Of a stretch of 64,000 nucleotides of DNA, positions 30,061 to 54,926 are shown one piece after another. Under the pieces are notes generated by a model. That model worked only from the letters and a program-made list of their open reading frames with translations, was not told the origin of the DNA and did no database searches. Every line of letters starts with the position of its first letter. Position 1 is the first letter of the stretch. The stretch is taken from positions 124,001 through 188,000 of the forward strand of contig NZ_CP054587.1 in NCBI RefSeq assembly GCF_002025255.2, read 5' to 3'. Position numbers and translations under genes: made by a program. This stretch comes from Halolamina sp. CBA1230. Lineage in GTDB: Archaea > Halobacteriota > Halobacteria > Halobacteriales > Haloferacaceae.

Positions 30061-30132
30061 GGTGGGAAAGAGGGCGCGGCGGCGGGTAAGTGGTTCGCTC
30101 CCGCCGGCCGCTCGTTTCGAAAAAGGCAGGTT

Positions 30133-30280
30133 ACACGACCGCGGCATCACGTTCCGTGGCCGAGACACGGCGGTCTCGGCAGGTCACGCGCCGCGGTCGG
30201 CGTACAACACGATCGCGGCATCACGCTCCGTCGCCGAGGCACGGAGGCCTCGGCAGGTCACGCGCCGCGATCGGTGTTAC
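30133..30280. repeat. Tandem pair of nested-hairpin extragenic elements
   Basis: Two copies with a period of 74 bases. Copy 1: outer stem 30136-30145 with 30190-30199, inner stem 30159-30166 with 30173-30180. Copy 2: outer stem 30210-30219 with 30264-30273, inner stem 30233-30240 with 30247-30254. All stems are perfect and the loops are 6 nt. Copy 2 ends three bases from the TAA of the 36-residue peptide gene (30277-30387, minus strand). A related pair is at 53029-53155. Confidence 0.75.
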
Positions 30281-52150: not shown

Positions 52151-53023
52151 ATGACCGACGAAGACGTCGTTTTGGGCGATCTCGAACTGACCCGGTCGCT
52201 GACGATCCAGATGAGCGCGATCGGGACGCTCGGCTTCGTCGTCGCGGCGTCGCTGTTCGCGGTCCTGTTCCAGACGGTCACCGGCGCGCCACCGACGTTC
52301 CGGTTTGCACCCGACGTGGGCTGGTGGACTGGGGCGTTGAACGCTGTCCTGTTGATCGTACTGAGTACCGCGTTCGTGATCCCCCACGAACTGCTCCACG
52401 GGCTGGCGATCCGCTACTACGGCGGGAAGCCCCGCTACGGCGTCGGCGTCGCGCACTTCATCCTCCCCTACGCCTACGCGACGGCCGACGAGGAGTTCAC
52501 CCGGAACCAGTTCGTCGTGATCCTGCTGACGCCGTTGGTGGTGCTCACCGCCGTCGGCGTGCCGCTGATGCTCGCACTGGAGTGGGGCTGGCTGCTCGTC
52601 CCGCTGGCGGCCAACGCCGCCGGCGCCGTCGCCGACGTGTGGATGACGCTGACGCTGTTGGGCTACCCCAAGCACGTTCGGATCGAGGACCACGAAACCG
52701 GCGTTCGCCTGATCGGCAAGGAGAGCGACCGCCCGCGCCCGCTCTCGGTGACCTCGTTGGTGTGGGACGCGCTCGCCGGCGCGGCGGTGTCGGCGTTCGG
52801 CGTGTTGGTGGTGCTAGCGGTCGCCGGACCGCTCGTGCTGTCAGCGATGGGGGTGGAGTCGATCACGATCGGCACCGAAGGAACGATCACCTACCTGTTC
52901 TCCTTCACGGAGACGGCCACCGAGATCTCGATGGGCGTCGGTCCGGCGGTACTGGTCGTCGGCGCGCTGTTGGGGCTGCTGTACGCGCTGATCCGGAGCT
53001 ACTTCCGGGTCGTGCGGGCCTGA
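52151..53023 (+). CDS. DUF3267 putative membrane zinc metallopeptidase
   Basis: A 290-residue membrane protein. VIPHELLHGLAIRYYGGKPRYG near residue 80 contains the HExxH-type motif (HELLH) inside a predicted helix, a site-2-protease-like arrangement, and AADVW-type helices follow. It has about six membrane segments. Family members are predicted zincin-type membrane proteases; substrates are unknown. Its stop leads directly into the nested-hairpin repeat pair. Confidence 0.75.
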   Translation: MTDEDVVLGDLELTRSLTIQMSAIGTLGFVVAASLFAVLFQTVTGAPPTFRFAPDVGWWTGALNAVLLIVLSTAFVIPHELLHGLAIRYYGGKPRYGVGVAHFILPYAYATADEEFTRNQFVVILLTPLVVLTAVGVPLMLALEWGWLLVPLAANAAGAVADVWMTLTLLGYPKHVRIEDHETGVRLIGKESDRPRPLSVTSLVWDALAGAAVSAFGVLVVLAVAGPLVLSAMGVESITIGTEGTITYLFSFTETATEISMGVGPAVLVVGALLGLLYALIRSYFRVVRA

Positions 53024-53028
53024 GTCGT

Positions 53029-53155
53029 CGTTCGGAATCCGCTCCGGCACGGCGGCCGGAGCAGGTCACGAGCCGTATTCGGGGACACACGATCACGGCA
53101 ACAGGCTCCGAGGCGCCGACAGTCGTCGGCGCCCGGTCACGAGCCGTGATCGGTT
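53029..53155. repeat. Second tandem pair of nested-hairpin elements
   Basis: Two copies with a 71-base period, homologous to 30133-30280. The right copy has outer stem 53090-53099 with 53143-53152 and inner stem 53112-53120 with 53125-53133, all perfect, loop 4 nt. The left copy has a perfect inner stem, 53041-53047 with 53056-53062, but a decayed outer stem. The shared core GGTCACGAGCCG is at 53064 and 53135. The right copy ends one base from the TAA of the pirin gene. Confidence 0.75.
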
Positions 53156-53891
53156 ACAGCACGAACGGCCCGCGCTGATCGATCGGCTCGTCGTGTGGCT
53201 CGCCCGCGACGGCGACGAGGCGGAGGTCCTCGCCTTCGACGGTGACACCGTCGGCGTCGGCCGACGGCAGCACGTCGCCCTCCCCGAACGCGTCGCCGTC
53301 GACGGTCCCCTCGCCCGAGACGCCGAAGAGGAACCCCGCCCAGCCCTCGGGTGCGGTCCACTCCCACGAGCCATCGACGCGCACGTCGTGGTACGTCATC
53401 GGCGTGTGCAGCGAGAGCGGCGACCCCTCGCCGACGACGGTGGTGATCGTCGCGCCCTCCACCTCCTCGGTCGGCAGTTCTCCACTGTCGGCGTCGGCGT
53501 AGTCGGCCTCTATCTCCTTCTGCTCCCGGGGGAGGTTCACCCAGAGCTGGAGGCCGTTACAGCCCGCGCCGTCGGCGGGCATCTCGGAGTGTTCGATTCC
53601 CTCGCCGGCCGTGATCCGCATCGCGTCGCCCGGGTAGGCGGTGTGGGTCACGCCCAGCGAGTCGCCGTGCTCCATCCCACCCTCCAGCATGTAGGAGACG
53701 ATCTCGAACCCGCGGTGGGGGTGGGTCGGGAACCCGTCGTCCGGTTCGATGTAGAACCGCTCGAACAGCACGAACGGGTCGAGGTTGTGGGGGTAGCCGT
53801 CGGTGGGAAACGCGCGGGTGGAGTTGACGCCGGTCCCGTGGCGAACCGTCTCGCCGGGGACGGGGGCGTTTACCGCCTGGTCGAAAGACAT
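53154..53891 (-). CDS. Pirin-like cupin protein
   Basis: A 245-residue bicupin. FPTHPHRGFEIVSYMLEG near residue 53 and AGEGIEHSEMP near residue 93 supply the histidines and glutamate of the metal site. Bacterial pirins can be quercetin dioxygenases or redox regulators; which applies is unknown. The start is the ATG at 53891. It is divergent from the superoxide dismutase gene, and its stop abuts the hairpin repeat. Confidence 0.85.
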   Translation of the reverse strand: MSFDQAVNAPVPGETVRHGTGVNSTRAFPTDGYPHNLDPFVLFERFYIEPDDGFPTHPHRGFEIVSYMLEGGMEHGDSLGVTHTAYPGDAMRITAGEGIEHSEMPADGAGCNGLQLWVNLPREQKEIEADYADADSGELPTEEVEGATITTVVGEGSPLSLHTPMTYHDVRVDGSWEWTAPEGWAGFLFGVSGEGTVDGDAFGEGDVLPSADADGVTVEGEDLRLVAVAGEPHDEPIDQRGPFVL

Positions 53892-54090
53892 GGTTCGTCG
53901 CAGTCGGCGGGGACGGTTAACGGTCACGACGGCGGAGCGGTGGAACGTTCTCCTTCTCGATATATCTATACCGTAGATGCGTATTCGGGGCGATGAACGT
54001 ATTTTCACTCCTGAATCGCACCTCTCTGATCCCGGACTTGAATCGGTTTCAGGGAACGCTCTTACCGCCCCCGACCGTATGGTTCAGTGC

Positions 54091-54693
54091 ATGTCTGATT
54101 ACGAACTGCCGCCGCTTCCGTACGAGTACGACGCGCTGGAACCGCATATCTCCGAACAGGTGCTGACGTGGCATCACGACACGCACCACCAGGGGTACGT
54201 CAACGGCTGGAACAGCGCCGAGGAGACGCTGGCGGAGAACCGCGAGAACGGCGAGTTCGGCGACTCGCCGGGCGCGATCGGCGACGTGACCCACAACGGG
54301 TCGGGGCATATCCTGCACGACCTGTTCTGGCAGTCGATGAGCCCCGAGGGCGGCGACGAGCCGTCGGGTGCGCTCGCGGACCGCATCGCGGAGGACTTCG
54401 GCTCCTACGACGCCTGGAAGGGCGAGTTCGAGGCCGCTGCCGGCGCTGCCGGCGGCTGGGCGCTGCTGGTGTACGACTCCTACAGCAACCAACTGCGTAA
54501 CGTCGTGGTCGACAAGCACGACCAGGGCGCGCTCTGGGGGAGCCACCCCATCCTGGCGCTGGACGTCTGGGAGCACTCCTACTACTACGACTACGGTCCC
54601 GCGCGTGGTGACTTCATCGACGCGTTCTTCGAGGTCGTCGACTGGGAGGAGCCCGCTGCCCGCTACGAGCAGGCCGTCGAACTGTTCGAGTAA
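54091..54693 (+). CDS. sod: Superoxide dismutase (Mn/Fe type)
   Basis: A 200-residue superoxide dismutase. Metal ligands are His28 in TWHHDTHHQGY, His in HILHDLFWQSM, and Asp and His in LDVWEHSYYYDY. GGWALLVYDSYSNQL is the usual dimer region. Mn rather than Fe is usual in haloarchaea. I chose the ATG at 54091 over in-frame upstream ATGs such as 54079. A strong hairpin follows at 54718. Confidence 0.92.
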   Translation: MSDYELPPLPYEYDALEPHISEQVLTWHHDTHHQGYVNGWNSAEETLAENRENGEFGDSPGAIGDVTHNGSGHILHDLFWQSMSPEGGDEPSGALADRIAEDFGSYDAWKGEFEAAAGAAGGWALLVYDSYSNQLRNVVVDKHDQGALWGSHPILALDVWEHSYYYDYGPARGDFIDAFFEVVDWEEPAARYEQAVELFE

Positions 54694-54717
54694 ACCAGTC
54701 ACGTCGACGAGTGACCG

Positions 54718-54739
54718 GCAGCAGTCCTTGGACTGCTGC
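54718..54739 (+). terminator. Strong hairpin 25 bases after the SOD gene
   Basis: GCAGCAGTCC pairs perfectly with GGACTGCTGC over 10 bp, with only two bases (TT) between. The stem is unusually tight and may protect the SOD mRNA or stop transcription; no T-tract follows it. Confidence 0.4.
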
Positions 54740-54926
54740 TCGGAACTCGGCGCTGCGATTGGCCCGCCCGCTTCGGCCCTCTCCGCGTTGCCCGGATCGA
54801 CCCCCGGACGACGCGGGCACTCTCGACGCGCCTCGTGCGGCGAGGCGAACGACGGTTGGCACCCTCTCGCCGCCGGACGCGTCCTTCGTGGTATCGAGCT
54901 AGCTACCCGATCTTCCTGCGAGAGAG

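Follow-up and report, generated by a model that had tools for sequence, protein, structure and literature searches.

A key question at the 3' end of the pirin gene of Halolamina sp. CBA1230 is what kind of element stands there, folded into two nested hairpins in tandem directly behind the stop codon. In bacteria, palindromic repeats next to stop codons are familiar elements, but how they arose and what they do is a matter of continuing debate. In the window, which is the whole 64,000-nucleotide stretch analyzed here (contig NZ_CP054587.1, positions 124,001 to 188,000), two related 71-nt units lie in tandem at 53011-53159 (locus 2), and GGTCACGAGCCG is found at 53064 and again at 53135, which gives the 71-nt period noted in the preliminary description. 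That description placed the pair correctly but, with an extent of 53029-53155, missed the 5' tag and the edges of the units. The site is made up of the following features.

53157-53897, minus strand: pirin gene (PF02678/PF05726; start codon provisional), the host gene of the array
53154-53156, minus strand: pirin stop codon TAA, 1 nt ahead of the outer stem
53083-53159, minus strand: right copy, the intact unit and the first after the pirin stop (75.4 bits with covariance model R1)
53143-53152, minus strand: sense 5' arm of its outer stem, CGATCACGGC on the minus strand (from sequence and fold)
53090-53099, minus strand: sense 3' arm of its outer stem, in perfect 10-bp pairing with 53143-53152
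53125-53133, minus strand: sense 5' arm of its inner stem, 9 bp with 53112-53120 around a loop at 53121-53124
53112-53120, minus strand: sense 3' arm of its inner stem, perfectly paired with 53125-53133
53011-53088, minus strand: left copy, the decayed second unit (nhmmer, 21.8 bits; covariance-model fragment, 17.2 bits, E 0.048)
52151-53023, plus strand: convergent gene of a DUF3267 zincin-like protein (PF11667), whose 3' end lies within the decayed unit

Both stems of the right copy are fully paired, as had been stated, and its folding as RNA beats 200 of 200 shuffles (z -6.1); folding as single-stranded DNA is also far above that of shuffles. The outer stem of the left copy, rightly called decayed, is broken and overlaps the DUF3267 stop (53021-53023, plus strand), and its 8-bp inner stem is intact (53041-53048 with 53055-53062).

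A sequence-similarity search of the genome provided a 31-copy alignment (A1) and, from it, model R1, with which 71 copies are found in this genome (G000). Homologues, whose absence had been named as a refuting outcome, are thus numerous, and the conserved pairing looked for with them is present and includes two-sided changes. The covariance model also upholds the proposed kinship of locus 2 with locus 1 (75.4 and 93.4 bits, respectively). Loci 1 and 2 had both been recognized, but a third locus in the window had not.

30203-30280, minus strand: first unit of locus 1 (93.4 bits), directly 3' of a TAA that, judged by eye, ends a short minus-strand frame
30129-30206, minus strand: second unit of locus 1 (89.1 bits)
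54689-54768, plus strand: third locus, a degenerate unit 2 nt past a superoxide dismutase stop at 54691-54693 (28.5 bits, E 9.5e-5)

The two superoxide dismutase paralogues of the genome each bear a unit right after the stop, at 54689-54768 of the window and at C1:2832336-2832412. Together with one further nhmmer copy, the 71 copies form 37 clusters, within which the units run head-to-tail. Arrays of one unit (15 arrays), two (12), three (8), four (1) and five (1) occur, and the idea of insertion as pairs is not supported. Only one copy lies off the main chromosome, the largest contig with 84% of the genome; this copy (C2:173738-173814) has a Y1 transposase gene some 155 bp away, and among the five TnpA loci scanned it is the only unit nearby.

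Read in the sense orientation, the unit is a nested hairpin of 68-74 nt that consists of an outer stem, an internal loop, an inner stem and a terminal loop. Its 5' edge has the consensus TARCC (T-A-[AG]-C-C). The outer stem of 10 bp ends in CGGC/GCCG, the left internal loop is approximately KMGYGACC, and the right one is approximately ACGGAGCGTGTT or a shorter variant, followed by a closing GTG. The inner stem has 7-11 bp in most units. The loops are conserved in sequence, whereas the stems vary freely and yet stay paired: the terminal loop is CTCCGT in 115 and CGCCGT in 23 of 306 units, while the same 306 units have 231 distinct inner 5' arms. In A1, columns 22-23 (GA) and 53-54 (GA) are invariant and the pair 24-52 covaries. 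A kink-turn might be read into this GA/GA arrangement, but no C-helix abuts the bulge and we do not claim one. A pseudoknot between the terminal loop CTCCGT and ACGGAG of the internal loop, complementary in consensus, was rejected, as its covariation is nil (paired fraction equal to that of shuffled pairs). An H/ACA guide RNA was also rejected, as the upper stem has no K-turn and degenerate copies are too numerous.

A variable stem, an unpaired internal loop and a location after a stop codon are also the anatomy of attC sites, so that the unit might be pictured as a strand-specific hairpin with a variable terminal stem that serves a tyrosine recombinase. The likeness, drawn from anatomy alone, is general. 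The hosts, however, are core genes that keep their places and not cassettes, tandem units have no genes between them, and attC core boxes are not apparent at the unit edges; a recombination site of this kind is extremely unlikely.

The preliminary description was right that the array adjoins the pirin stop, but it overlooked what defines the family, namely that its arrays adjoin a stop and do so in a single orientation. Array-starting units were tested for a stop within 9 nt that closes, in frame, a long reading frame with codon bias; of the 175 such units from seven genomes, 121 have one 1-6 nt ahead of the outer stem, most often at a distance of 1 nt (70), 2 nt (24) or 3 nt (21), compared with 1.3% of random places and 4 of 175 mirror images. 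The resulting 69% is a lower bound, because in several exceptions (such as L074 and L162) extra hairpins split the stem base from the stop. The host genes include those for pirin, two superoxide dismutases, a proteasome subunit, ribosomal protein L15e, pyrophosphatase, lipoyl synthase and a universal stress protein, and further host genes were named by eye from their translations. One of the hosts, an MCM-like gene at C1:1600238, has an apparent intein, likewise seen by eye in its translation.

The strict sense orientation and the spacing of 1-3 nt past the stop exceed a plain preference for a DNA target and could reflect selection for an RNA function. In that case the unit would be a cis-regulatory RNA of the 3' UTR, under selection at the transcript level, through which housekeeping genes have their translation termination, ribosome recycling or mRNA decay controlled. 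The housekeeping nature of the hosts and the combination of conserved loops with free stems are in line with such a role. So is a T-rich, terminator-like stretch that lies beyond the unit of one superoxide dismutase gene (SOD-b) and would place this unit within the 3' UTR. Against it, arrays at two of the conserved sites are found not at a sense stop but close to the start side of adjoining genes.

The stops ahead of arrays are TAA (61), TAG (37) and TGA (23); those of the 42 window genes are TAA (4), TAG (9) and TGA (29). TAR is found in the 5' tag of 49% of the non-first units, compared with 16% expected from composition, and is either part of the element or copied from the host stop. In units without a following unit, the 3' flank resembles the last codon plus stop of the host above shuffled pairs (z 3.4), which is a weak sign that the edge copies the host stop. 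Based on these edges, a conventional MITE or PATE could be proposed, with the outer stem, which amounts to an inverted repeat, as terminal inverted repeats, a transposase acting in trans, insertion at TAR triplets and the flank resemblance as a possible target duplication. The stop triplet itself, however, is matched no more often than in shuffled pairs (9 of 53 flanks, compared with 9.4). The units also keep a single orientation, no parent transposon with these ends was found among the Y1 loci, and a transposase that reads terminal letters would not allow the compensated variation of the arms. We consider this origin very unlikely.

All seven Halolamina genomes examined carry copies, 15-96 per genome by model searches, where the copies outside G000, G001 and G006 are a sample of better-scoring matches. 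They are the only carriers among 119 genomes of the family Haloferacaceae: no copy was found in its 27 other genera at E 1e-8, nor in 65 other genera of an order-wide sample at E 1e-4 (1 of 66 genera positive), both scans being run with stricter filters that may miss weak relatives. An exact-pattern search gave a match in Halolamina pelagica. As far as sampled, the repeat family is confined to the genus Halolamina. A search of Rfam 15 gave no matching family for the unit, which counts against a known class of regulatory RNA.

Between species, single sites are filled or empty. At the pirin site, arrays are found in G000, G002, G004 and G006 and none in G001 and G005, and both superoxide dismutase genes are likewise filled or empty depending on the species. 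At the site of the UspA gene, about 10 nt separate two convergent stops in G002, G003 and G004; a full unit and a cut one are present in G000, G001 and G006 have decayed units, and in G005 the unit is enlarged by three extra hairpins. Such empty sites may be either ancestral or the result of loss, and the absence of the element from many orthologous genes is a further point against a cis-regulatory RNA. In a partial sample, 30 of 59 host-gene groups have arrays in more than one genome (two to five), and that a site can persist, its loops conserved, in as many as five species also suggests a function. Identical inner hairpins amount to 10% within an array and to 0.2% between arrays of one genome; pairs of units therefore look like local tandem duplications of single units.

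The stems themselves bear on how they are maintained. In the pair counts on A1, 90% of the cells are paired, compared with 74% after shuffling and at most 52% after sliding, and 102 cells are two-sided, compared with 32 shuffled; the covariation score is 0.480, whereas shuffling gives 0.193 and sliding no more than 0.133. When orthologous units are compared, 47% of the inner pairs are different, and the differences comprise 324 two-sided changes from one Watson-Crick pair to another, 13 to or from G.U, 9 A.C and 22 other non-Watson-Crick differences, counts that treat species pairs as independent and carry no tree correction. Covarying pairs and two-sided changes at orthologous sites would also be expected of a regulatory RNA. 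Selection at the RNA level, however, should make G.U dominate, and among the non-Watson-Crick interior pairs of all units G.U (99) is barely above A.C (66), with 129 others. The few G.U intermediates and the small excess of G.U over A.C point to maintenance of the stems at the DNA level rather than to strong RNA-level selection, although the small sense-strand excess leaves room for the latter. Taken with the points above, control by a 3'-UTR RNA appears somewhat unlikely. The pattern fits either a requirement for a perfect DNA hairpin or arm-to-arm copying during replication; template switching, in which one arm is copied onto the other, has been proposed to keep RNA hairpins (PMC8794818). 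Template switching should also leave inverted loops behind; none was noticed among the common loop sequences, and the loops, at any rate, thus appear constrained.

Of the known kinds of element, the bacterial REP is nearest, and the Halolamina family resembles REPs near stop codons. Both are dispersed extragenic palindromes in tens of copies and in arrays near gene 3' ends. In both the edge is able to supply a stop, as GTAG-tagged REP termini often do with TAG (PMC3733652) and TARCC can do in Halolamina. Both also occur within 15 nt of the stop, a distance at which REPs stall ribosomes in Escherichia coli (PMC12306157). The Halolamina unit differs from REPs in being a nested double hairpin of 68-74 nt instead of a single palindrome of 20-40 nt, in its edge TARCC instead of a GTAG or CGTC tag, and in being archaeal, head-to-tail and in one orientation relative to the gene. 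Several Halolamina species have no RAYT-type gene: the Y1 transposase domain (PF01797), the candidate driver of spread, has no match in G001 and G003 and only broken fragments in G006. Membership of the REP-RAYT system was rejected, as two of the seven genomes lack the domain and it is missing even where copies abound. Because its size, edge and transposase relations differ from those of REPs, the family is filed as REP-like and not as REP.

Among haloarchaea, the SMRs and PATEs of Haloquadratum, which lend some plausibility to a MITE or PATE, are likewise short, transposase-free repeats in up to 54 copies (PMC3119063). In the parts of that account compared here, SMRs have inverted terminal repeats and PATEs near-terminal palindromes; SMR-A, unlike the Halolamina unit, is about 110 bp and has as its targets the near-terminal palindromes that other mobile elements carry, PATEs show a relationship to IS605-type ends, and the descriptions give no stop-codon anchoring (PMC3119063). 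Mitochondrial repetitive and double hairpin elements are also small, dispersed, intergenic and at times doubled or tandem, but in sponge mitochondria the stems are conserved and the loops vary (PMC2800124), the reverse of the situation in Halolamina.

Based on these comparisons, we consider it fairly probable that the family is a non-autonomous, REP-like, genus-specific archaeal palindromic DNA repeat, whose function and spread we infer. A protein would recognize the fold together with the letters of the terminal and internal loops, which would leave the stem letters free; arrays would grow through local tandem duplication; and stem pairing would be kept mostly at the DNA level, either through copying of arms by template switching or because a perfect DNA hairpin is required. 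New copies may establish at TA(A/G) stops, where they would do least harm to the gene and the TARCC edge can supply the stop. As the transcribed hairpin would start where the terminating ribosome stands, it probably affects translation termination or the stability of mRNA 3' ends. This role, drawn from position only and the weakest of our inferences, is proposed because REP elements act so in E. coli when the stop is no more than 15 nt away. A point against this reading is that Y1 offers no driver for the family, since about 65 copies are present in each of G003 and G006 despite the absence of the domain from the former and its fragmentation in the latter. A bolder version, which we regard as distinctly unlikely, is that the family is a genus-wide punctuation of stop codons, in which a protein reads the loops of the folded strand, the stems are template-switched and the element marks the ends of housekeeping transcripts; if true, it would control termination or decay of those transcripts.

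The family is an archaeal, stop-anchored palindromic one, and its filled and empty sites can be compared across seven related genomes. It provides a clean set of natural data on how pairing persists in hairpins whose letters change, whether in two steps via G.U or in one step by template switching, and it bears on whether a structure 1 nt past the stop alters translation termination in archaea.

A few arrays are placed differently. One conserved in five species (L053/L040, L095, L206, L227 and L213) is not at a sense stop; in these species it immediately precedes the start side of a divergent gene, apparently for an Obg-like GTPase. An RNA gene upstream of the L053/L206 array was considered and rejected, as Rfam and tRNA searches gave no match and the region is the start side of the apparent GTPase gene. 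At L013 and L245, an inverted array lies near the stop of an apparent translation initiation factor 1A gene, beside a divergent gene start. Some units elsewhere, including those at L074, L162, L182, L174 and L289 (the UspA site of G005), and none in the window, contain additional hairpin modules, perfectly paired and variable in their stems, which are nested so that they separate the base of the outer stem from the stop. These modules, CCAGAA..TTCTGG, ACGAGAG..CTCTCGT and GTCAGAAG..CTTCTGAC, occur in 38, 28 and 8 distinct contexts, respectively, counted on both strands, so that the true sites are fewer.
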